Shown: positions 154 to 14,277 of the stretch, piece after piece | Layout of the letters: every line of letters begins with the position of its first letter | How positions within the stretch are numbered: the stretch's first letter is position 1 | Virus record (IMG/VR): IMGVR_UViG_3300047300_001079 | Span: 1-22,794 of that record | DNA from: a virus | Strand: one strand, 5' to 3' | Length of the DNA: 22,794 nucleotides | Position numbers and translations under genes: made by a program | The notes under the pieces: generated by a model | What the model saw: the letters and a program-made list of their open reading frames with translations, nothing else | What the model was told of the DNA's origin: nothing | Database searches by the model: none

Positions 154-1911
154 ATGACACAATGGATTGCCGGGATTACACGGGGCCATAACGGAGCAGT
201 TTGCCTTTTAAAAGATGGTGAACTAGTTTTTTATGTAGAAGAAGAGCGATTATCAAGAAAAAAATATGATGGCGGACCTTTTGCAGGTATGATGAAAATC
301 AAAGAGTATACAGATAAATTAGATTATCTTGTAGTTGCACATACGCAACCTCTTGAACATGCAGGTAAAATTGATTTTACTGGCGATGATATGTATACAG
401 GATTAGCCAGAAAACTCGGATTAATTGATCAAAAGTATAATGGACGTGACCATCCGCAAGTAATTGACTTAGGCGGTATTCACCATGAATTGCATGCTGC
501 GTGTACTTTTTATAATAGTGGATTTGAAGAAGCTGCTGTTTTAATTGTGGACGGAGCAGGAACATTTATTCCGCTTGGGGATACTACAGGCTGGGAATTA
601 GAGACAATCTTTAGCGCGCAATATCCTGCTAAGTTTACTACTAAATTTAAGCATATTGGAGTTCGCGGACCACAAACAGCCTATGAAAAGCTTCAAGTAC
701 CTCACGCACATAGAGGACATGAAGAACTACACGATGTAATTTTCACAGATCACCCAGGCATTACAAAATGCTATGAGGCTATGACAGACTATTGTGGGTT
801 TGGATTTATCGAAGCTGGAAAAGCTATGGGATTAGCACCATATGGCAAACCCAACCCAGATATTCCAGAGATCTTTTTAGGACCAAAAAGTCGTAACTTA
901 AGTAATCGTAACTTATTTGTTCCAAACTACCCCAACGGGGCTCATATCGATAAAGTAGCTAATCCAGTATTGGATACTGATAGTTTAGATATGAAAAAAG
1001 ATTTAGCATATGCTGTACAAGAAGCTACACAAATGCAAATGGTACGCTTAATCAAAGATGCTATTGAACGTACCGGTATTAAAAATGTATGTATTGCTGG
1101 CGGTTTTGGATTAAACTGCGTAGCAAATTACGAATATTTAAAACACTTGCCAGAAGGTACTAAACTGTATTGCGAGCCAATTGCTCATGATGGCGGTACT
1201 TGTATTGGAGCGGCTAAACTTGTTTATCACGAATTTAGTGGCGATAAGACTATTCGCAAACAAACTACTATTTACCACGGCCCAAACTACTTTGAACGAG
1301 ATGGTGGCTATAATATTGAGCTACACCACGACGAGCAAATTAGTACAGTAACCAAAGATGAGGTTATTGAACTAATTACTAGTGGTAATATTGTTTGTTT
1401 ATATCAGGGCGGAAGCGAAGCAGGTCCACGAGCACTAGGAAATCGTAGTATTTTATTCGATCCACGAGTTCCTAATGGCAAAGATATTGTTAATGAAGTC
1501 AAGCATCGTGAGTGGTTTAGACCTTTCGCAGGATCTATGTTAGCTGAACATGTTCACGATTGGTTTGATTTACGTGGCATGGAAGATAGTCCCGTTATGA
1601 TGTATGCAGTAGACTGCAAACCCGGAGTAGCAGAGAAAGTTCCAAGTATCATTCATGTGGATGGAAGTTGCCGAATTCAAACTGTAACACCCGAGCAAAA
1701 TAAGCATTATTATGAGCTTATTGAAAAGTTCTATGAAAAAACTGGTGTACCTATTTTGTTTAATACTAGTTTTAATTTAGGTGGTGACCCACTAGTAGAA
1801 ACTATTGGGGATGCATTAAACACACTGCGCAATAGTGATTTGCAGTATTTATACTTGCCAGAAACAAATCAGCTTATTCACGTTCCATATAATCTACAAG
1901 CAGAAGAATAA
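154..1911 (+). CDS. NodU/CmcH-family O-carbamoyltransferase
   Basis: Predicted enzyme that uses carbamoyl phosphate and ATP to O-carbamoylate an acceptor, usually a sugar hydroxyl. The 585-aa length is normal for the family. The N-terminal YrdC/Kae1-like ASKHA part shows GHNGA near residue 11, EEERLSRKK near 29-37 and the metal-binding HHELHAA at 110-116, then DGAG near 133. The C-terminal domain shows GSEAGPRALGNRS near 419-431, the basic KHREWFRPFAG segment and FNTSFNLGGDP near 536-546. GGAG at 142-145 is a good ribosome site for this ATG. It is followed after 2 bp by an oxygenase-like gene and then by heptose genes, so a heptose or other glycan acceptor is inferred. In Pseudomonas aeruginosa LPS the inner-core heptose II is 7-O-carbamoylated, which gives a precedent. 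DNA hypermodification is an alternative. Family call sure; substrate unknown. Confidence 0.93.
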   Translation: MTQWIAGITRGHNGAVCLLKDGELVFYVEEERLSRKKYDGGPFAGMMKIKEYTDKLDYLVVAHTQPLEHAGKIDFTGDDMYTGLARKLGLIDQKYNGRDHPQVIDLGGIHHELHAACTFYNSGFEEAAVLIVDGAGTFIPLGDTTGWELETIFSAQYPAKFTTKFKHIGVRGPQTAYEKLQVPHAHRGHEELHDVIFTDHPGITKCYEAMTDYCGFGFIEAGKAMGLAPYGKPNPDIPEIFLGPKSRNLSNRNLFVPNYPNGAHIDKVANPVLDTDSLDMKKDLAYAVQEATQMQMVRLIKDAIERTGIKNVCIAGGFGLNCVANYEYLKHLPEGTKLYCEPIAHDGGTCIGAAKLVYHEFSGDKTIRKQTTIYHGPNYFERDGGYNIELHHDEQISTVTKDEVIELITSGNIVCLYQGGSEAGPRALGNRSILFDPRVPNGKDIVNEVKHREWFRPFAGSMLAEHVHDWFDLRGMEDSPVMMYAVDCKPGVAEKVPSIIHVDGSCRIQTVTPEQNKHYYELIEKFYEKTGVPILFNTSFNLGGDPLVETIGDALNTLRNSDLQYLYLPETNQLIHVPYNLQAEE

Positions 1912-1913
1912 GA

Positions 1914-2639
1914 ATGGGTACAGAATTTTTAGAAGGTCCAGTACCTAATACTAAATTTGGAAAGCGATTTAAAGTACCTATTTATACTGCAAAAGACGGA
2001 AGTAAAGAGTTTATTAAAACTCTTTACGACTACGTTGTACACCTAGAAGATACTATTATAAGCAAAGAAGAGCTTGTAAGTAGCGTACCTAAAGCGTCCA
2101 CAGACCCTTATCAGTACACACAGCAGTGGAAACAACATAATTTATTTGATGATGTTGTTGGTTTAGGTGGCGAACATCTACAACGATTTGAAAAGATACC
2201 TGAAATAGATCAGCTGCTTAAATTAGTAAGAGAGCATTATTTAGTTAATCTAGCTAATTTAAGATATCCTCGCGTTAAAGCCTACATACATGGATGGGCA
2301 AATATACTAAGGCCAGGAGAGTGGATTAGTCCACACTGTCATATTGATGGTGAAGAAGCATATCTTGCAGCTACTTATTATTTAACAACTAATAATACTA
2401 GCTTATACATGCACGATGCTTCTTATCCTAAAACGTGCGGTGCAGTCACAACAGAAGCAGGAAAAATAGTTATATTTCCTAGCTGGATGCATCATTGGAG
2501 TGATAAGTGTGAAGATGAATCTTTGCGGGTATCATTAGCCTTTGATATAGTTACAGAAAATACTGTACAGGGTAACCCTTGGAGACCCCATGTACTACTA
2601 GATGATCCTGCTACTATGCCAGGACTTGATTATAAATGA
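1914..2639 (+). CDS. Putative 2-oxoglutarate/Fe(II) oxygenase
   Basis: A 241-aa protein with the facial-triad pattern of 2OG-Fe(II) dioxygenases: H143-x-D145 in SPHCHIDGEE, a distal His in WMHHW (193/194) and R205 in RVSLAFDI, which would bind 2-oxoglutarate. The sequence around PGEWISPHCH and IFPSWMHHW resembles the putative phage/bacterial 2OG-Fe(II) oxygenase family TIGR02466 from memory. The first 100 residues are not recognisable. It starts 2 bp after the carbamoyltransferase stop and its TGA overlaps the ATG of the next gene, so it is in the same operon. The substrate could be a sugar, protein or nucleobase; the position within a glycan module favours a sugar or surface target. It is not visibly a TET/JBP-type DNA oxygenase. 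Confidence 0.72.
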   Translation: MGTEFLEGPVPNTKFGKRFKVPIYTAKDGSKEFIKTLYDYVVHLEDTIISKEELVSSVPKASTDPYQYTQQWKQHNLFDDVVGLGGEHLQRFEKIPEIDQLLKLVREHYLVNLANLRYPRVKAYIHGWANILRPGEWISPHCHIDGEEAYLAATYYLTTNNTSLYMHDASYPKTCGAVTTEAGKIVIFPSWMHHWSDKCEDESLRVSLAFDIVTENTVQGNPWRPHVLLDDPATMPGLDYK

Positions 2640-3619
2640 AAAAAGCATTTTTTATTAATGGCGGAATAGGTCGTGTATTATGCGCCATCCCAGCCTTAGA
2701 GCACTATGTACAAAATGTAGATGCTGACGCAGTAATAGTTGTGGAGGCATGGTTAGATTTATTCTTACTTAGTCCTATCTTAAAAGATAATGTTTATCCA
2801 GTAAACCATAAAGGCTTATTTAAAGATAAATTACGAGATAAAAATCTGATTAGTTTAGAACCTTATCGATTAAATGCTTATTTCAATCAAAAAGCTAACT
2901 TAATTCAAGCTTTTGATATGCTAGTAAATGATTTAACAGAAGTGCCGGAGACTAAACCACTGTCTATTTCTGTTGGTAAATCTGATGAAATTGTTGGGTT
3001 TAACTTGCTTAACCAAATTCGTGCTGAACTTGGAAAAGAGAAAGTAATAGTATTTCAACCTTTTGGCAGCGGTGCTAAATTAGATGGAAATATTATTATT
3101 GACGAAAGTGGTCGTAGTTTTGAACTAAAAGACACAGTAGAAATTATTGAAGAACTCAGCAAAGATTACTGCGTTGTAGTTATGTCAAGTATTAAAATAC
3201 CTTATACTTTTAGTACAAGAGTAGCACATCCTGAAAATGTTAGTTTGTTACAGTGGACAGGTATTATTGATGCTTGCGATTATTTCTTAGGGTGTGATAG
3301 TGTTGGACAACACTATGCCAATGCCTTGGGTAAAAAAGCCACAGTTGTAATTGGAGCCACCTTTCCCGAAAATATCAGTTATCCCGATAACGAGAACTTT
3401 ACTATTATCGATAATGGTTTAGGATTACGAGAATATTCACCTATTCGTATTACTCAGGATATATTTACAGATCGCGCAAATGAATCACTTATGTTACTTA
3501 GCCAAGAAACCAAAGACTTAATTGTAGATACTGTTAAATCAGGAGCAGGACCCAGTAAGAAATTTACTCCTGTAACACAACAACAAACTCAGCAACAAAA
3601 TGCTTGTTGCGTTAAATAA
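2636..3619 (+). CDS. GT9 heptosyltransferase-like glycosyltransferase
   Basis: Resembles ADP-heptose:LPS heptosyltransferases (GT9, GT-B fold) in overall layout. The N-terminal glycine-rich GGIGRVLCAIPALE (residues 9-22) is the usual acceptor-side loop. A central FQPFGSGAK sits where GT9 enzymes have their nucleotide-domain entry, and the C-terminal CDSVGQHYANALGKKATVVIGATFPE matches the DSG-x-HxAxA-LG-P-x-VxLFG pattern of the donor site. The 327 aa are close to typical GT9 size. The last 15 residues are Gln-rich with CC near the end, an odd tail. Its ATG overlaps the upstream stop by 4 bp and its last base is shared with the next start. Adjacent ADP-heptose synthesis genes strongly suggest ADP-heptose as donor. 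The acceptor, host LPS or another molecule, is not known. Confidence 0.75.
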   Translation: MKKAFFINGGIGRVLCAIPALEHYVQNVDADAVIVVEAWLDLFLLSPILKDNVYPVNHKGLFKDKLRDKNLISLEPYRLNAYFNQKANLIQAFDMLVNDLTEVPETKPLSISVGKSDEIVGFNLLNQIRAELGKEKVIVFQPFGSGAKLDGNIIIDESGRSFELKDTVEIIEELSKDYCVVVMSSIKIPYTFSTRVAHPENVSLLQWTGIIDACDYFLGCDSVGQHYANALGKKATVVIGATFPENISYPDNENFTIIDNGLGLREYSPIRITQDIFTDRANESLMLLSQETKDLIVDTVKSGAGPSKKFTPVTQQQTQQQNACCVK

Positions 3620-4029
3620 TGAAAATATTTGTAAACGGCACTTTTGACGTCTTACATCCAGGCCACCTAGACTTGCTGAATTATGCAAAAAGTCTAGGTG
3701 ACTTTTTACTGGTGGCGATAGATTCGGACAGCCGAGTCGCCAGCAAAAAGGGAATGGATAGACCTTTTAATCCACAATATAACCGAATGAAGTTACTTGA
3801 AAACTTAAAAGCAGTTGATGAAGTAGTAATTTTTGATACGGATCAAGAACTAACACAAACAGTAAAAATACTTAGGCCTGACATAATGATTGTTGGGTCA
3901 GATTATAAAGATAAAACCGTAATTGGTTCGGAATATGCACGAGAACTTAGATTTTATAGCAGAACAACACCTCACTCAAGTACCCAAATACTGGAACATT
4001 TTATTGATCGGAGACGAATGTACGGATGA
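3619..4029 (+). CDS. rfaE2: Heptose-1-phosphate adenylyltransferase (HldE C-domain type)
   Basis: A 136-aa cytidylyltransferase-fold protein. It carries the nucleotide-binding GTFDVLHPGH at 7-16, the NRMKLLENL helix, and GSDYKDKTVIGSE, matching the KGGDYK...VxGxE signature of D-glycero-beta-D-manno-heptose 1-phosphate adenylyltransferase; the PHSSTQIL end matches the CSTT.II end of Escherichia coli HldE. In E. coli this is the C-terminal half of bifunctional HldE; here it is a separate gene placed before the kinase, as in organisms with split RfaE. The final 95 bp overlap the kinase gene in another frame. Predicted to form ADP-D-glycero-beta-D-manno-heptose in the cytoplasm. Confidence 0.88.
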   Translation: MKIFVNGTFDVLHPGHLDLLNYAKSLGDFLLVAIDSDSRVASKKGMDRPFNPQYNRMKLLENLKAVDEVVIFDTDQELTQTVKILRPDIMIVGSDYKDKTVIGSEYARELRFYSRTTPHSSTQILEHFIDRRRMYG

Positions 4030-4720
4030 GTACATTTATGGAACTATTGACCGACTAAGTCCAGAAGCACCTGTACCAGTATTTGTTCCACATAATAAAG
4101 AAACCAAGCGTGGAATGGCGGGTAATGTAGAAGAAAATTTACTTGCACTGGGTTGCAATGTTGCTACATTAAGTGGTGAAAAAAGTACAAAAACAAGATT
4201 TATTGATGCCAGGTCTAAACAACACATAATGCGGTTAGACCAAGATAAGCCTGCACAACCACTAATTTTAGAAACATTAATACCTCCAGTATACGATGCA
4301 GTAGTAGTCAGCGACTATAATAAAGGGCTAGTAACCTACGAGTTAGTAGAAACTATACTTAAACAATTTAACGGCCCAGTTTTTATTGATACAAAGAAAA
4401 CTGACTTGGCTAGGTTTAATGGAGCTTTTGTAAAAATCAATAGCCTAGAATACTCACTGGCTAAAACACTATCAGATAATCTAATTGTTACATTGGGTAA
4501 AGACGGTACCCGCTACAAGGATACGACATATCCTGCACCTCAAGTAGAGGTTGCCGATGTGTGTGGTGCCGGAGATACTTTTTTATCTGCACTGGTATAC
4601 GAGTATTTAAATACCAACAGTATTCCACAAGCAATTGAATTTGCCAATCGTGCAGCTTCTGTAACTGTAAAACACACAGGTGTTTATGCACCTAAACTGA
4701 AAGAAATAAATGCGGCTTGA
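3935..4720 (+). CDS. rfaE1: Minimal heptose-7-phosphate kinase (HldE N-domain type, PfkB)
   Basis: PfkB-family sugar kinase close to the N-terminal half of HldE. Visible landmarks are ILLIGDECTDEY, the RLSPEAPVPVF segment nearly identical to HldE's RISPEAPVPV, MAGNVEENLLALG, VVSDYNKG, IDTKKTD and the ATP-site GAGDTF near residue 212. It should phosphorylate D-glycero-D-manno-heptose 7-phosphate at C1. At 261 aa it is clearly shorter than the roughly 318-residue E. coli domain: between the LALG helix and TRFIDAR about 30 residues are missing, so the kinase is compacted. I prefer the ATG at 3935; a TTG four codons earlier (3923) is possible. Neither has a clear ribosome site, and translation may couple to the 95-bp overlapping adenylyltransferase gene. 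Confidence 0.85.
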   Translation: MHENLDFIAEQHLTQVPKYWNILLIGDECTDEYIYGTIDRLSPEAPVPVFVPHNKETKRGMAGNVEENLLALGCNVATLSGEKSTKTRFIDARSKQHIMRLDQDKPAQPLILETLIPPVYDAVVVSDYNKGLVTYELVETILKQFNGPVFIDTKKTDLARFNGAFVKINSLEYSLAKTLSDNLIVTLGKDGTRYKDTTYPAPQVEVADVCGAGDTFLSALVYEYLNTNSIPQAIEFANRAASVTVKHTGVYAPKLKEINAA

Positions 4721-5066
4721 AGGCTTTGTAGAAAAGGGCTGGGGTTCAGAAAACATTTGGGCAACCAATGACAAGTACTGCGGTAAACTATTGCAGTTTA
4801 ATACTGGTGCTCGTTTTTCAATGCACTTTCACGCACAAAAAGATGAAACTTGGTATGTGCTTAGCGGAAAGTTTAAGGTAGTAGTTATCAATACAGCTAA
4901 TGCTAGTCAAGTAGTGCATGAACTTAATTCGGGTAGTGTTTGGCATAATCCACCACTACTACCACATCAATTAATCTGCTTAGAAGCAGGCACTATCATT
5001 GAAGTATCAACACCAGATTCGGTAGAAGATAACTATCGTGTAGGCAAAGGCGATAGTCAACAATGA
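4710..5066 (+). CDS. Small cupin-domain protein (sugar-phosphate isomerase-like)
   Basis: A 118-aa single-domain cupin. Cupin motif 1 is visible as MHFHAQKDETWYVLSGK (metal ligands H, H, E), and motif 2 as HNPPLLPHQLICLEAG. The opening VEKGWGSENIW resembles the entry of mannose-6-phosphate isomerase-type cupins (WG.E..W). It overlaps the kinase gene by 11 bp and its stop overlaps the next ATG. In a sugar-nucleotide operon it might isomerise or epimerise a sugar or bind one; the exact reaction cannot be told from the sequence. It is a candidate, though not a homologue, for the missing isomerase step of the heptose route. Confidence 0.75.
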   Translation: MRLEGFVEKGWGSENIWATNDKYCGKLLQFNTGARFSMHFHAQKDETWYVLSGKFKVVVINTANASQVVHELNSGSVWHNPPLLPHQLICLEAGTIIEVSTPDSVEDNYRVGKGDSQQ

Positions 5067-5356
5067 AATACATTATAGACATTGATGGTACTATATGTAC
5101 CTTAACCAATGGCAATTATACCGATGCAGAACCCTACCTATATCGTATAAAACATTTTAATAATCTTTACAATGCTGGCAATGAGATTCACTACTGGACT
5201 GCTCGTGGTAGCAATAGTGGTAAAGATTGGCTAGAACTTACGCTCCAACAATTAAATGACTGGGGTGTTAAGTATACCACAGCGCAAACAGGTAAACCAG
5301 CCTACGACGTTTGGATTGATGACAAAGCCTTTAATGTAGGCACATATTTTAAATGA
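5063..5356 (+). CDS. Small HAD-superfamily phosphatase of sugar clusters
   Basis: A 97-aa HAD hydrolase without a cap domain. Motif I is DIDGT at 6-10 (nucleophile and acid/base Asp), motif II is the Thr in YWTARG, and the acidic end IDDKAFN gives motif IV. Similar 100-aa proteins occur in capsule/LPS loci and phages, and I recall some being labelled phosphoheptose-related because of their neighbours. It lacks the Cys/His zinc loop of true GmhB, so it is not a GmhB orthologue, but a phosphatase is exactly the activity needed between the kinase and adenylyltransferase steps (heptose-1,7-bisphosphate 7-phosphatase). Start and stop both show ATGA overlaps with neighbours. Confidence 0.78.
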   Translation: MKYIIDIDGTICTLTNGNYTDAEPYLYRIKHFNNLYNAGNEIHYWTARGSNSGKDWLELTLQQLNDWGVKYTTAQTGKPAYDVWIDDKAFNVGTYFK

Positions 5357-6135
5357 AAATTTTACTAACAGGACACTGTGGCTTTATTGGGCAAAATATG
5401 TTACAAGCCTTGCAGAATACTGACCATGAGATTAACACTTTTGAGTGGTCGGATGGAAATATGCCTAGCATTATGGAACAAGACTGGGTTATTCATATTG
5501 GAGCTATTAGTTCTACTACTGAACGTGACGTTGACAAAGTACTGCGTCAAAACTATGATTTTAGTAGGCAACTATTTATAGCTTGTAAAACCTATGGAGT
5601 AAATTTACAGTATTCTAGTTCAGCTAGTGTATACGGTCTTGGAACTGATTTTTGCGAAACAGCACCACCAGACCCACGTAATGCATATGCCTGGTCAAAG
5701 TACTTATTTGAACGCTATCACCAACAACATCAAGGCGGTAACATAGTACAAGGATTTCGATACTTTAATGTTTACGGTCCACACGAAGATCACAAAGGCT
5801 CACAAGCTAGCCCTTACCATCAGTTTGGTAAACAAGCCCGTGAAACTGGTAAGATAAAAGTATTTGAAAACAGCGATAAGTATCGCAGAGATTTTGTACC
5901 AGTTGAGCAGGTCATTGCTACTCATCTGGCTTTTTTAAACAGCAAAGAATCAGGAATATTTAACATTGGTACTGGTACTGCAAAAAGCTTCTTAGAAGTA
6001 GCCGAAACTTTTAGTGTACCCGTTGAAACTATACCAATGCCTGAGCAGTTGGCAGCAAGCTATCAAAAGTATACTTGTGCTGATATGACAAAAACCAATA
6101 AAATTTATGACTACTCTAAAAGAACTAACACATGA
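5353..6135 (+). CDS. hldD: ADP-heptose 6-epimerase-like SDR (HldD type)
   Basis: Extended short-chain dehydrogenase/reductase. The Rossmann loop is G7-x-x-G10-x-x-G13 (TGHCGFIG), the catalytic pair is Y112-x3-K116 in YAWSKYLFE with the SSSASVYG serine before it. Several stretches follow HldD rather than generic epimerases: ISSTTE, GFRYFNVYGP, HKGS.AS, KYRRDFV and GIFNIGTG. It would convert ADP-D-glycero- to ADP-L-glycero-beta-D-manno-heptose. At 260 aa it is about 50 residues shorter than E. coli HldD, with the loss at the C-terminus (last helices) where the gene overlaps the heme oxygenase start by 29 bp. Whether the shortened tail still allows oligomerisation is unknown. Confidence 0.88.
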   Translation: MKILLTGHCGFIGQNMLQALQNTDHEINTFEWSDGNMPSIMEQDWVIHIGAISSTTERDVDKVLRQNYDFSRQLFIACKTYGVNLQYSSSASVYGLGTDFCETAPPDPRNAYAWSKYLFERYHQQHQGGNIVQGFRYFNVYGPHEDHKGSQASPYHQFGKQARETGKIKVFENSDKYRRDFVPVEQVIATHLAFLNSKESGIFNIGTGTAKSFLEVAETFSVPVETIPMPEQLAASYQKYTCADMTKTNKIYDYSKRTNT

Positions 6136-6643
6136 ATCGCATGAGCGTGCAGAAGTTCACCCATTCACAAAATTAGTTTTATCAAAAAACATCAGCCCAG
6201 TAGTATACGCTGATTTTTTGTACAATCAACACGCTGTATACCACACACTTGAAAGTGTAGCTAATATTCGTGGATTGCTAGACGATTTACCAGGATTACG
6301 ACGCGCGCCACTAATTTGGCAGGACTTTGAGGAGTTACAGATTAGTGGGTGTAAACTGTATACAAGTACACACAAGTATATTCACTATCTTGTGTGTAAC
6401 TTATCTGACGAACAGATACTAGCACACTTGTATGTACGACATATGGGCGATATGTATGGTGGTCAGATGATTAAGCGCTGTGTTCCTGGCAGTGGTAGTA
6501 TGTACGAGTTTAAAAATCGTAAAGAGTTGATTGAAACTCTACGAAGTAAACTAGATACTTCTATGGCTTCGGAAGCAAACTATTGCTTTGATTGTGCTAT
6601 TCAATTATTTACGGAACTAGCCAATGAGCACAATATTCAATAA
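6107..6643 (+). CDS. ho1: Heme oxygenase (HO-1 type)
   Basis: Predicted to open heme to biliverdin IXalpha, releasing CO and iron, using reduced ferredoxin. The proximal heme ligand is H12 in THESHERAE, matching the T..SH..AE motif of cyanobacterial and mammalian HO. The flexible distal helix is G114-DMYGGQ-120, preceded by YVRH, matching Y.RY.GD.SGGQ. At 178 aa it is shorter than the roughly 240-aa cyanobacterial enzymes, mainly at the C-terminus. It overlaps the epimerase by 29 bp and the bilin reductase by 20 bp, so the three genes are co-transcribed. The adjacent reductase indicates a bilin-making rather than an iron-scavenging role. Phage heme oxygenases are known from cyanophages and uncultured marine phages. 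Confidence 0.93.
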   Translation: MTTLKELTHESHERAEVHPFTKLVLSKNISPVVYADFLYNQHAVYHTLESVANIRGLLDDLPGLRRAPLIWQDFEELQISGCKLYTSTHKYIHYLVCNLSDEQILAHLYVRHMGDMYGGQMIKRCVPGSGSMYEFKNRKELIETLRSKLDTSMASEANYCFDCAIQLFTELANEHNIQ

Positions 6644-7325
6644 ACTAAAAGCTCATGCAGCAGAATTGGAAGCAATTTTAGCTGCGCGGGCTTTTTCTTC
6701 GCCTTCAGAAATCACCTCAGAATGGTACACCCGAAACTTTAGTAACTGTTGGTTCCGACGTGGTAACTTAGATGTTATTGACGTATCGGAATCTAAAAAG
6801 TTGTATATGATGCACCTGTGTGTATTTCCACATACATATGATGCAGCACCTATTTATGGGTTTGATATTGTAGCCGGCACAAATAAAATCACAGGGGCTT
6901 TTTTAGATTTTAGTCCTGTAGGTGATCCAGAGCATCCAATGTGCAAGTGGTTTCAAGAATTAGTAGAACCCACCGAATGGGCTAAACCACGTGAACTACC
7001 TGAATGGGCTCGTAATATATTTTCTAACCGCATGGTTGCTGCAGGTAATATTAACACAGACTTTGAACTAAGTGTTATCTTAGAAATAAGCAAGAAGTCA
7101 CTTATTTATTACTTGGACAACTTAAAACACCATCGTCCAGCATTAAAGTACGAAGATATGGTAGCACAACATAATTTTACTGAAAAGCAAAATTATTACT
7201 GTCAGCAACAAAAATGTAACCCACATACTCCCAGAGTATTAAAATCACTAGGATTCAATGATGATCAAGTCCATGAGTACATACATAAAGAACTGTTTCC
7301 TGAAATACGAACAACAGTGGATTGA
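6624..7325 (+). CDS. pcyX: Ferredoxin-dependent bilin reductase (PcyX/PcyA lineage)
   Basis: Reduces biliverdin to a phycobilin. The core PIYGFDIVAG followed by ITGAFLDFSP is the family signature. By hand alignment D81 equals the essential Asp105 of PcyA/PebS and H64 equals PcyA His88 (both 17 residues apart). The C-terminal YYCQQQKCNPHTPRVL matches the YxxQQ..N..T.RVL helix of PcyA, with N199 at the position of PebS Asp206. No Glu aligns without gaps to PcyA Glu76 (I52 there; D50 and D53 are near), which would fit a phage PcyX making phycoerythrobilin rather than a classical PcyA making phycocyanobilin, but this is inference. The 233 aa are typical for phage enzymes. The start overlaps the heme oxygenase end; no strong ribosome site, so coupling is likely. 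Confidence 0.92.
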   Translation: MSTIFNKLKAHAAELEAILAARAFSSPSEITSEWYTRNFSNCWFRRGNLDVIDVSESKKLYMMHLCVFPHTYDAAPIYGFDIVAGTNKITGAFLDFSPVGDPEHPMCKWFQELVEPTEWAKPRELPEWARNIFSNRMVAAGNINTDFELSVILEISKKSLIYYLDNLKHHRPALKYEDMVAQHNFTEKQNYYCQQQKCNPHTPRVLKSLGFNDDQVHEYIHKELFPEIRTTVD

Positions 7326-11769: not shown

Positions 11770-12177
11770 TTATACTACATTCCAGTTTGTTCCACTAAAT
11801 ATTAGTGTAACTGCACCATCTGTTGCAGCTAAGATAGTATAACTTCCTGCTACATTTTCAATAGTTTCTGCACCGTTAGGTGTAATTGTAATATCGCTAG
11901 TTTGTCCAGCTTCTGATTTAATTACAAGTACACGGCCTTCTATACCTGCCGTTAGATTAACTGTAACACCAGCTCCTGCTCCGTCTACCCCTATATAGTA
12001 GTTAGGCGTTGCACCCGCACTATCAATAGTATATGGGCTTGCAGCATCGTTAATTGCATGAGTATTAACTATACCGTTGCCAATAACAGAAATAACACCA
12101 TTGGTTACGTTTACACCGCTTCCAACTTTAACCACACCGTAGCCAGTGGTCGAGGCTAATGGACTATTAAATGCCAT
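11770..12177 (-). CDS. Appendage-like protein built from two shared modules
   Basis: A 135-aa Gly/Thr/Val-rich protein with the look of a virion decoration or fibre tip. The N-terminal module (LASTTGYGVVKVGSGVNV, residues 7-24) matches that of the neighbouring 184-aa protein (LASTSDYGVMKVGSGLTA). The C-terminal module (from YYIGVDG near 61 to GTNWNVV at the end) matches the C-terminus of the collagen-like protein (YYLGV ... GIEWNVV). It therefore combines parts of both neighbours. The start follows an AGGGGGA ribosome site. Probable beta-structured, likely trimeric, surface-exposed; binding target unknown. Confidence 0.75.
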   Translation of the reverse strand: MAFNSPLASTTGYGVVKVGSGVNVTNGVISVIGNGIVNTHAINDAASPYTIDSAGATPNYYIGVDGAGAGVTVNLTAGIEGRVLVIKSEAGQTSDITITPNGAETIENVAGSYTILAATDGAVTLIFSGTNWNVV

Positions 12178-12192
12178 GATTTTTTCCCCCTT

Positions 12193-12747
12193 TTAACTAA
12201 TTTTAGTCATTGTAACTTTTAAACTACTGCCTGTGGGTCTTGTAGGGTTTACGCCAGCAGGCAATGCACTGAGATTGACTGTTGTATCAGCACTAGACCA
12301 ACAGAATTGTAAATTGCTATTAGCAGCCATATTTAGAGTAAAATTGCCGCTTGTAAATATTATTGATAAGGTATTTATTAGTTCTAGGTCCTGCCTAGAT
12401 CCCGGCACGTCTACACCATTGTACCGTAACCAAATACTCATTGAACTAGTACCGCCACTAGTTTTTGCCATTGTGGTAGTAAATAGCACCGTGTATACAC
12501 CAGCATTAGTTACTCTAAGAGTATTACCGCCTACTAAACTAACGCCATTATTTGGTCCTATAGTACTAAATGTACCTATATTGACTTGATTTGCAACTGG
12601 ATTTGTTTGTGTACCATTACTATAAAAACCATAGTTTAAAACTAATCCTGACGAAGCACTAACTACGCCGTCTACAGCAGTTAAACCACTACCAACTTTC
12701 ATTACACCATAATCTGAAGTTGAGGCTAAAGGTTGATTGTAGCTCAT
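12193..12747 (-). CDS. C1q/TNF-like jelly-roll appendage protein
   Basis: Start placed at ATG 12747, in an ATGA overlap with the upstream stop; an in-frame ATG at 12759 would add four residues, but alignment of MSYNQPLAST with the paralogue's MAFNSPLAST favours 12747. The 184-aa product has the shared YGVMKVGSG N-terminal module and then a C1q/TNF-like beta-sandwich: the GVYTVLFTTTMAKTSGGTSSMS and IWLRYNG stretches resemble the F-x-x-G-x-Y-x-F core of C1q domains, and a late NSNLQFCW strand follows. In phages and spores such domains trimerise at fibre tips, often after collagen-like stalks; here the collagen stalk is in the adjacent gene. Confidence 0.65.
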   Translation of the reverse strand: MSYNQPLASTSDYGVMKVGSGLTAVDGVVSASSGLVLNYGFYSNGTQTNPVANQVNIGTFSTIGPNNGVSLVGGNTLRVTNAGVYTVLFTTTMAKTSGGTSSMSIWLRYNGVDVPGSRQDLELINTLSIIFTSGNFTLNMAANSNLQFCWSSADTTVNLSALPAGVNPTRPTGSSLKVTMTKIS

Positions 12748-13235
12748 ACCACATTCCATTCTATACCATTGTAAATTAAACTAATTGAGCCCCAATCTGT
12801 GTTTAATATATAACTTGTCTGCCCATCAATAGTTGATCCAGTAGTTACCACAGTAATCGGATTCGTGTTAGCATCTCCAACAGCATCCTTGACAACATAA
12901 ACTTTGCCGACAGTACCCGCAGGTAAAGTAATCGTAACTGAGCCATCATAAATAACGCCTAAATAATATTCTGTTGCTCCAGGACTATAAGTTGCTTCAT
13001 CTATTAGTGTAACAGGTACATCTGCCAAACTACCTGGCTCACCTTGTGGCCCTTGTGGTCCTGGTGGTCCTGATGGTCCTGGTGGTCCTGGTGGTCCAAT
13101 TACATTGCTATTTATAAATAAGTCTCGATCATCTACTATAGGAGGACATCCTCCGGGTACATAAGGTGAAGGCAGTGCCGGAGGTATAAATGGAGCCATA
13201 GGCCAACCAAATGGCAAGCTTTGCCGTTGATCCAT
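12744..13235 (-). CDS. Collagen-like appendage protein
   Basis: A 163-aa protein in three parts: a Pro-rich N-terminus (residues 7-33), seven uninterrupted Gly-X-Y triplets at 47-67, rich in GPP and GPQ, and a C-terminal beta module (from YYLGVIYDG to GIEWNVV) shared with the 135-aa protein at 11770-12177. Collagen-like triplets form trimeric stalks in many phage fibres. Start at 13235 has AAGGA upstream (AAGGAATAAAT then ATG). It is followed by the C1q-like gene with an ATGA overlap. Confidence 0.82.
   Translation of the reverse strand: MDQRQSLPFGWPMAPFIPPALPSPYVPGGCPPIVDDRDLFINSNVIGPPGPPGPSGPPGPQGPQGEPGSLADVPVTLIDEATYSPGATEYYLGVIYDGSVTITLPAGTVGKVYVVKDAVGDANTNPITVVTTGSTIDGQTSYILNTDWGSISLIYNGIEWNVV
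13035..13097 (-). repeat. Gly-X-Y collagen-like triplet repeat, 7 units
   Basis: Seven in-frame triplets (three GPP, then GPS, two GPQ and GEP types) encoded by near-repeated 9-bp GGTCCTGGT-type units on the plus strand. Such DNA is prone to gain or loss of units, which would vary stalk length. Confidence 0.9.
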
Positions 13236-13254
13236 ATTTATTCCTTATAAAAAA

Positions 13255-13281
13255 GCCTCCACAACTTGTGGCTGCGGAGGC
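13255..13281 (-). terminator. Intrinsic terminator after the Gly/Gln-rich protein gene
   Basis: On the minus strand GCCTCC pairs with GGAGGC, with further inner pairs (GCAG with TTGT, including G-T wobbles), followed by TTTTTT (plus-strand A run 13249-13254). It lies just downstream of the gene ending at 13291 and upstream of the collagen-like gene, so it would lower readthrough into the appendage genes. Confidence 0.88.
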
Positions 13282-13290
13282 TTAAACTAA

Positions 13291-14211
13291 TTAACGAATG
13301 TTAGTATTAGTTGGTGTGTTGGTTGAGGTTTGTGTACCGCTTCCAACATTGATTGCGCTATTGTTATCACGAATAGACTGGCTCAAGCCCCAGATAGCAC
13401 GGTACAATTCACCGTACTGAGCTTGCTGTTGTTGTTGTTGTTGCATTTGGTTGATGTTGTTTGTGGTAGTAACTTCGATACCACGTGTACGCTCAGCCAA
13501 GCGGCCGTCGTGACGCAACTCAATAATTTCAGCATTAGCATCAGCCAATTGACGTTGCAAGTTCAATTCGTACTGTGAAGTGATCAATGCGCGTGTCTTT
13601 TCACCATCAGCTGAAATGTCTTTAGACAATTCATAACGATTTTCCATTGTGGTTTGATTTAATGCATTCAATTGTTGCATTAAGGCAACCATATTAGTGT
13701 TAACAACATCTTTAACCCCTTCAACACGGGTAGCTAAACTCCCTGTTGTAGCATTGAATTGATTTGTTAAACCAATGGTTTGATTAGCTTGTGAGGCTTC
13801 CATTGCTGCAGTACTAACAGCTACTGCTTTATCAACTGCACCAATAGATTGCATTAATTGCATATTAGCTGTTGATTGCTCAGGAGGAATACGTGCACCA
13901 CCTAAAGCTGCTGCAGCTGCTCCGTCACCATTGTTAAAGAGGCCTCCGTTGTTGCGCAATAAGCTGCCTAAAATTAATCCACCGATTAATCCACCACCAC
14001 TGCCGAACCCCAGTCCGCCGTCACCACCACTCATCATCATACCACTTGGTTGAAGAATTTCTGCCATACCTTTATCCTTTAATTTTGTGATCTCACTCAT
14101 AACTTTATCATAGTAGTTATTAGCTTGATCTATTTTATCTTGAAGCGCACCCATATTATATGCAACATCACCTGTTGAATCTAATCCTGGTACGCCAGTT
14201 TCATCTGCCAT
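13291..14211 (-). CDS. Gly- and Gln-rich probable virion protein
   Basis: Start set at ATG 14211, where AAGGAAG lies just upstream; a longer frame to 14250 would begin inside the leader. The 306-aa product has a soluble helical N-terminus, a Gly-rich hydrophobic stretch (GLGFGSGGGLIGGLILGSLL, about 66-85), an Ala-rich stretch (GAAAAALGG), then a long charged helical region and a poly-Gln tract (QMQQQQQQQAQ) before a Thr/Asn-rich tail. Low-complexity composition, a strong own promoter and a structured leader suggest abundant late expression and a structural role. No family recognised. Confidence 0.78.
   Translation of the reverse strand: MADETGVPGLDSTGDVAYNMGALQDKIDQANNYYDKVMSEITKLKDKGMAEILQPSGMMMSGGDGGLGFGSGGGLIGGLILGSLLRNNGGLFNNGDGAAAAALGGARIPPEQSTANMQLMQSIGAVDKAVAVSTAAMEASQANQTIGLTNQFNATTGSLATRVEGVKDVVNTNMVALMQQLNALNQTTMENRYELSKDISADGEKTRALITSQYELNLQRQLADANAEIIELRHDGRLAERTRGIEVTTTNNINQMQQQQQQQAQYGELYRAIWGLSQSIRDNNSAINVGSGTQTSTNTPTNTNIR
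13422..13444 (-). repeat. CAA trinucleotide tract encoding poly-Gln
   Basis: A run of GTT units on the plus strand (CAA codons on the minus) encodes seven consecutive Gln flanked by more Gln. A simple-sequence tract that could slip during replication and change length in frame. Confidence 0.85.
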
Positions 14212-14234
14212 ATAACTTCCTTTTAAAGCAGAAA

Positions 14235-14277
14235 TGATACTGCGTATCACGCGCAGTTACCAAAACCTTGGCAACTG
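14235..14277 (-). other. Two hairpins in the 5' leader of the virion protein gene
   Basis: On the minus strand, CAGTTGCCAAGG pairs with TTTTGGTAACTG (14254-14277, with a few G-T wobbles), and TGATAC-GCA-GTATCA (14235-14249) follows. The first hairpin begins at or within one base of the predicted transcript start. Such 5'-terminal stems can protect mRNA from RNase E-type decay; this is inference. Confidence 0.6.

Follow-up and report, generated by a model that had tools for sequence, protein, structure and literature searches.

The virus record IMGVR_UViG_3300047300_001079 of IMG/VR, whose full 22,794 bp are referred to here as the window, carries in its left part a run of plus-strand genes, mostly overlapping, which extends from a carbamoyltransferase gene through hldD and is followed by genes for a heme oxygenase and a bilin reductase (Table 1). 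An earlier note, made from the sequence alone, had read positions 3619-6135 as a compact set for the biosynthesis of ADP-heptose, i.e., a split HldE, a small HAD phosphatase and an HldD-like epimerase, and had found a candidate for every step of the pathway except the first, that of GmhA. The open reading frames and the NCBIfam models confirm the gene set, with HldC, an HldA-type kinase, the small HAD and HldD in overlapping frames, and the same interval also holds a cupin that had been passed over, as had the carbamoyltransferase and the 2OG-Fe(II) oxygenase-like gene upstream. This cupin is a near-constant partner of the heptose genes in viral loci from which GmhA is absent, and it is probably the candidate for the first step; the pathway reading of the note is largely right, and its claim of a missing first step probably not.

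The assignment of HldC, the kinase and the epimerase to the heptose enzymes is supported by their sequences and by their active-site residues. The best of all NCBIfam models are TIGR02199 rfaE_dom_II for HldC (2e-32), TIGR02198 rfaE_dom_I for the kinase (5e-41) and TIGR02197 heptose_epim for the epimerase (2e-64), and other models of sugar kinases, nucleotidyltransferases and epimerases all score worse than the heptose-specific models for these three proteins. Among solved structures, the nearest are E. coli HldD for the epimerase (1eq2, 1e-43), an HldA-type heptose kinase for the kinase (4e84, 3e-18), and a putative cytidylyltransferase for HldC (5x9q). The catalytic residues of these proteins and of the HAD are at least 97% conserved, with 23-83 relatives compared per protein. 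For example, S90/Y112/K116/K148 of the phage HldD align with S116/Y140/K144/K178 of E. coli and are conserved across its relatives, with K148 matching the second base Lys178, while the kinase, which starts at the ATG at 3935 and overlaps HldC by about 95 bp, retains D214 of GAGD and the HldE signature R40/P43-E-A-P-V-P48 (RxxPEAPVP), at least 97% conserved in 71 sequences. The HxGH motif of HldC, found as HPGH at residues 13-16, is likewise conserved in 71 sequences. The split HldE and the HldD-like epimerase of the earlier note are therefore upheld, as none of the three proteins falls in an unrelated family or has lost its catalytic residues.

Table 1. Genes of the heptose cassette and its upstream neighbours in the window.
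Feature	Position	Strand	Basis
NodU/Nol-type carbamoyltransferase, both domains	154..1911	+	PF02543 (92 bits), PF16861 (196 bits); phrog_1601 (2e-167)
2OG-Fe(II) oxygenase-like protein, optional neighbour	1914..2639	+	PF13759 (2e-10)
GT9-fold (heptosyltransferase-like) protein	2636..3619	+	AlphaFold2 model and structure comparison; family phrog_8954
HldC, heptose 1-phosphate adenylyltransferase (split RfaE domain II), 136 aa	3619..4029	+	TIGR02199, HxGH
HldA-type PfkB kinase, heptose 7-phosphate 1-kinase (split RfaE domain I)	3935..4720	+	TIGR02198, PEAPVP, GAGDT
Cupin, 118 aa, proposed sedoheptulose-7-phosphate isomerase in place of GmhA	4710..5066	+	PF01050, invariant residues, linkage
Minimal capless HAD phosphatase (BcbF-like), 97 aa, candidate for the GmhB step, optional	5063..5356	+	TIGR01689, phrog_1238, HAD motifs
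HldD, ADP-glyceromanno-heptose 6-epimerase, short form, 260 aa	5353..6135	+	TIGR02197, 1eq2, catalytic residues

The window contains no SIS-domain homologue (TIGR00441) and, as it is a virus fragment whose record has no sequence ahead of base 1, gmhA was also sought in its relatives. HldC, HldA, the cupin and HldD were found within 5 kb of one another in 142 loci, in which order and strand vary through 16 gene orders, and given that the four genes stay close while their arrangement varies in this way, a functional link is indicated rather than frozen synteny. The genes recur together in well over 100 viral loci, so the set is no chance arrangement, nor is it special to the phage of the window, being widespread both among viral contigs and among isolated T4-like cyanophages. 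The cupin is present in 68 of the 80 viral loci centred on HldD, and loci centred on the cupin with at least 3 kb on both sides contain HldC in 48/51, the kinase in 46/51 and HldD in 35/51 cases. The identity of these cupins to the window copy is mostly 65-90%, typically above that of HldC or the kinase. Two phages have the cassette without a local cupin, and in both the cupin gene lies at another place in the genome (E 3e-50 and 2e-51).

The viral distribution of GmhA is the reverse of that of the cupin. Among kinase-centred viral loci, the cupin occurs in 52 of 56 and GmhA in none, and of the 53 viral loci centred on GmhA, many of which are heptose modules of the HddA or HldA type, a single one has the cupin, and this locus (L349) has two modules next to each other. 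Searches with hidden Markov models (HMM) detected no GmhA in 31 and 23 related whole viral records, some of more than 300 kb, nor in P-SSM2, S-SSM7, Bellamy, S-SM2 and P-TIM68, and when the cassette-bearing viral records were searched whole, GmhA appeared in just one, in a separate module. GmhA was sought with phage GmhA queries and HMMs in addition to tblastn with E. coli GmhA, which misses divergent phage GmhA, such as that of SynMITS9220M01 (47 bits by HMM).

The exchange of partners in other phages also bears on the reaction of the cupin. In the Synechococcus phage SynMITS9220M01, the two neighbours of the cupin, with overlapping ends, are HddA (287 bits), a D-glycero-D-manno-heptose 7-phosphate kinase of the GHMP type, and a nucleotidyltransferase resembling HddC, and the same annotated order of kinase, cupin and nucleotidyltransferase, again with overlapping ends, is found in the cyanophage Bellamy. 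In the Caulobacter phage Cr30, on the other hand, HddA adjoins GmhA, in the position that the cupin has in SynMITS9220M01 and Bellamy, and in other viral loci GmhA stands ahead of HldA-HldC. Given that HldA (PfkB) and HddA (GHMP) belong to different superfamilies and share the substrate heptose 7-phosphate, which is the product of GmhA, this swap points to the reaction of the cupin. SynMITS9220M01 has two heptose modules (L248, 6943-9755 and 13556-16324), one with the cupin and HddA, the second with the divergent GmhA, an HddA-like kinase and an HAD-HldC fusion, an arrangement consistent with one isomerase per module.

One case comes from a cellular genome. An uncultured Bacteroidetes metagenome-assembled genome (MAG), G033, carries hldA-hldC-hldD in a polysaccharide locus, and on another contig (L086, 127-1203) a gene for a GmhB-type HAD immediately precedes one for a cupin with 56% identity to that of the phage, in an otherwise bacterial context. 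No gmhA was detected in this genome, where the sole TIGR00441 match (26 bits) lies inside a 617-aa reading frame, and a search across its order gave no second cellular genome of this kind (1/393 genomes). The scan of cellular contigs gave only 3 loci with the cupin, and two of these probably come from phage contigs that were binned into a MAG. One probable phage contig, in a Neomarinimicrobiota MAG (L084, 6745-10979), has in a row a fused HldA-HldC (379 aa), HldD, the cupin and a GmhB-type HAD, which by sequence is a full set with the cupin in place of GmhA.

The sequence of the cupin agrees with an isomerase of this kind. The conversions of fructose-6-phosphate to mannose-6-phosphate and of sedoheptulose-7-phosphate to D-glycero-D-manno-heptose 7-phosphate are one type of reaction, with the same configuration at C2, and the window cupin matches the type II phosphomannose isomerase (PMI) family PF01050 at 26.4 bits (cut-off 23.6), and 12 of 25 members of its family are matched by this model. 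Four metal-site residues, H39, H41, E46 and H86, are invariant in the family, and K26, H41, E46, H86, E98, D107 and R110 are common, in alignment, to the PMI domain of E. coli CpsB, which has Gln at the position of His39. In the fold search, the cupin model reaches Z 14.4 against an archaeal PMI and Z 14.2 against D-lyxose isomerase. As cupins of other functions score alike in fold, the isomerase assignment rests on context and residues, and the reaction is probably that of GmhA, given the linkage, the exclusion of GmhA and the residues shared with PMI.

Two annotations copied among these phages look wrong (e.g., L081, 9803-10484). The name "cysteine dioxygenase" (phrog_7851, T4-GC 307) was rejected for the cupin, which keeps the invariant motif-1 Glu46, a residue that true cysteine dioxygenases are not known to have; the fold comparison alone does not exclude that name. 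The name "phosphoheptose isomerase" (phrog_1238, T4-GC 306) was rejected as well, the protein being an HAD of ~97-114 aa with DxDGT and no SIS domain.

This small HAD matches phrog_1238 (3e-26) and, weakly, the BcbF-type model TIGR01689 (3e-4), and no GmhB-type HAD model matches the window copy, which has 97 aa against about 190 aa for GmhB. All four HAD motifs (DxD...T...K...DD) are intact within these 97 residues and conserved in relatives. The phosphatase proposed in the earlier note is hence retained as such, and its place in the GmhB family is not: by sequence, the protein groups with BcbF-like phosphatases. It was found in 45 of the 142 cassettes, 98 having no DxDGT reading frame nearby, and in a few loci a GmhB-type protein of 200 aa stands near the cassette in its place. 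As the HAD is so often absent, the phosphatase step would often be left to the host.

The adjoining GT9 enzyme of the earlier note, directly upstream of HldC, has no Pfam match, and the GT9 fold is given by its AlphaFold2 model (pLDDT 90). Through this model, it compares best with 3tov, a Veillonella GT9 protein (Z 21.6), followed by WaaF (20.8), TibC (19.0) and WaaC (18.2); matches to GT9-type structures lie overall at Z 17.9-21.6, and the first other fold class at Z 11.9. D221 and H226, in the C-terminal part, are retained. Of 80 viral loci centred on the GT9-like gene, 79 also contain the carbamoyltransferase. Cassette genes are present in the same record in every marine isolate with a close copy of the GT9-like protein (at least 35% identity), namely in P-SSM2, P-SSM5, S-SSM7, S-SSM6a, S-CAM1, S-CAM3 and Sf-FS3, as well as in four single-cell viruses, of which one is a 4-kb fragment. 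More remote copies, of 27-29% identity, are found in phages of Vibrio and Aeromonas, and these phages are not among the cupin or kinase matches. In Pseudomonas, WapO carbamoylates HepII of the lipopolysaccharide (LPS) core (PMC8005017), for which reason a carbamoylated heptose is a reasonable guess for the product, and the linkage of the GT9-fold protein with the carbamoyltransferase suggests it by analogy.

Taken together, these observations make it fairly probable that the phage module makes ADP-L-glycero-D-manno-heptose from the sedoheptulose-7-phosphate of the host, with the cupin replacing GmhA. In this pathway, the cupin would convert sedoheptulose-7-phosphate to D-glycero-D-manno-heptose 7-phosphate by a ketose-aldose reaction, as in type II PMI, and HldA would add the 1-phosphate. 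The 7-phosphate would be removed by the small HAD, or by the GmhB of the host where the HAD is absent, after which HldC would add AMP and HldD would invert C6. The last steps probably fall to the GT9-fold protein and the carbamoyltransferase, which would transfer the heptose to an acceptor on a surface or virion and carbamoylate it, in the manner of WapO on HepII; the substrate of the HAD, the acceptor and the carbamoylated product are all inferred. Remodelling of the host LPS by the cassette is plausible, and was already proposed for cyanophage LPS clusters (PMC3037559, PMC7824862, PMC9602691). A transketolase-like/E1-dehydrogenase-like gene lies just upstream of the heptose kinase in P-TIM68 (L249, 1911-3056), where it could influence the supply of sedoheptulose-7-phosphate, and a similar gene is annotated in S-SM2 (L267).

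Several points weigh against this pathway. The reaction of the cupin is a prediction; cupins are functionally diverse, and the search with the modelled fold does not separate isomerases from the others, given that CapF (Z 16.0), KdgF, oxalate decarboxylase and cysteine dioxygenase-like folds have similar scores. HldC (111.9 bits on TIGR02199), the kinase (140.9 on TIGR02198) and HldD (218.1 on TIGR02197) score under the curated equivalog cut-offs of 181.5, 345 and 274.6, respectively, so their substrates could have drifted. The HAD is missing from about two thirds of the cassettes, and a few viral loci carry HldA/HldC/HldD with neither cupin nor GmhA. Arg13, invariant in 30 GT9-like members, stands in the N-terminal loop at the position of the catalytic Asp13 of WaaC/WaaF, and this family is possibly of altered catalysis or a non-catalytic form. 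The Bacteroidetes genome is a MAG with its cupin on a 5.7-kb contig, and its gmhA could be unassembled. The viral loci share descent and were sampled by query gene, which means that their counts are not independent trials, and a pooled Fisher test mixes loci drawn by GmhA with loci drawn by the cupin, its p-value being no real probability; a fair comparison comes from the kinase-centred set.

The alternative that survives best, which we consider unlikely, is that ADP-heptose is made from heptose 7-phosphate supplied by the GmhA of the host, and that the cupin is another ketoisomerase or epimerase acting on a sugar or nucleotide sugar, leading to an unusual heptose. The cupin fold does not fix the reaction, and the frequent absence of the HAD indicates that some steps may lean on the host; however, GmhA is almost completely excluded from the viral loci of the cassette, the cupin stands beside both HldA and the unrelated HddA, and it has residues of the PMI type. 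Moreover, Synechococcus WH8102, the host of the cassette-bearing phages Sf-CH5, Sf-CH8 and Sf-FS3, has no heptose in its LPS (PMC4515613), a finding on LPS composition.

It is considerably less probable that descendants of HldE and HldD make another nucleotide sugar (a hexose, a pentose or a different heptose), in which case the cupin would be an isomerase of the phosphomannose or lyxose type that acts on this sugar. The sub-threshold scores of the three enzymes would fit such a shift, as would the resemblance of the cupin to PMI (PF01050) and the presence of type II mannose-6-phosphate isomerases in some cyanophages (PMC9602691), but the heptose-specific models outscore all other models of sugar kinases, nucleotidyltransferases and epimerases, the HldE signature PEAPVP and Lys148 of HldD are retained, HddA, the alternative partner of the cupin, is of a heptose-7-phosphate kinase family, and the linked GT9 fold is of the heptosyltransferase type. 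That the genes are filler DNA without function, as was raised in 2010 for cyanophage LPS genes (PMC3037559), is scarcely credible with open, overlapping reading frames, catalytic residues conserved in divergent relatives and a gene set kept through 16 gene orders.

A broader proposal, which we advance only tentatively and hold to be somewhat less probable than not, is that the cupin is the founding member of a new class of sedoheptulose-7-phosphate isomerases without homology to the known one, and that the self-contained module puts carbamoylated heptose on its hosts, including marine picocyanobacteria with heptose-free LPS, marking infected cells or virions. If the preferred pathway with the cupin as isomerase is true, the committed step of ADP-heptose synthesis would have a second solution, unrelated to the first, the two widely copied annotations would be corrected, to cupin and HAD, and infected cells would be predicted to contain heptose even where the host is not known to produce it. 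The cyanophage LPS genes, which the 2010 comparison left as either working or filler, would become a pathway that is nearly complete and amenable to reconstitution in vitro.

The right part of the window has T4-type genes (SSB, SbcC/D-like, ribonucleotide reductase, dUTPase, PhoH, endolysin), and the source of the fragment is a T4-like phage with no near DNA match to the window among phage isolates. Directly behind hldD (6107-7325) are the heme oxygenase and a ferredoxin-dependent bilin reductase of the PcyA/PcyX type, a pair that is retained in the closest relatives (L001-L009) and has related gene pairs in freshwater phages (PMC11480375). Beside the ribonucleotide reductase gene (11770-14250), there are minus-strand reading frames of 135, 188, 163 and 319 aa with no or marginal PHROG matches. 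The 2OG-Fe(II) oxygenase gene is seldom kept alongside the cassette in the viral locus scan.

The cassette itself is already known in cyanophages, as unexplained "LPS genes". The 2010 comparison reported the co-occurrence of T4-GC 304, 305, 307 and 308 in three phages, as either functionally linked genes or filler DNA (PMC3037559), and a 2021 survey noted PfkB kinases and sugar isomerases of the cupin type in the surface-sugar clusters of cyanophages, and interpreted a cluster in S-SSM6a as a possible system of secondary metabolism (PMC7824862). Heptose-related LPS genes were also reported in SynMITS9220M01 (PMC7378029). Within a partial coverage of the literature, no paper assigning a cupin to the GmhA step was found, and this assignment appears to be the new element.

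Among known systems, the LPS clusters of P-SSM2, S-SSM7 and S-SM2 (PMC3037559) are of the same families, i.e., T4-GC 302 (GT9-like), 303 (carbamoyltransferase), 304 (HldC), 305 (kinase), 306 (HAD), 307 (cupin) and 308 (HldD), to which the window proteins are mostly 35-56% identical, and they were annotated with "cysteine dioxygenase" and "phosphoheptose isomerase" and no pathway. Cr30 and the other viral modules with GmhA resemble the cassette in being phage-borne modules with a heptose-7-phosphate kinase, and differ in having GmhA (SIS fold), mostly an HddA-type kinase, and no cupin. WapO and WaaC/WaaF of Pseudomonas likewise combine a carbamoyltransferase and GT9-type transferases with heptose (PMC8005017), and differ from the cassette in that the phage GT9-fold protein has Arg13 instead of Asp13. 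Type II PMI (the cupin domain of CpsB/AlgA and archaeal PMI) is likewise a small cupin with the K, H, E, H, E, D and R positions, whereas the phage cupin has H39 for the Gln of CpsB, and its context is heptose synthesis rather than that of GDP-mannose. Finally, the ADP-L-glycero-D-manno-heptose pathway of Gram-negative bacteria (GmhA, HldE, GmhB, HldD) shares with the phage the homologues of HldA, HldC and HldD, their catalytic residues and the proposed order of reactions, while the phage has a split kinase and adenylyltransferase, shortened enzymes, a minimal and optional HAD for GmhB and, as proposed here, a cupin for GmhA.

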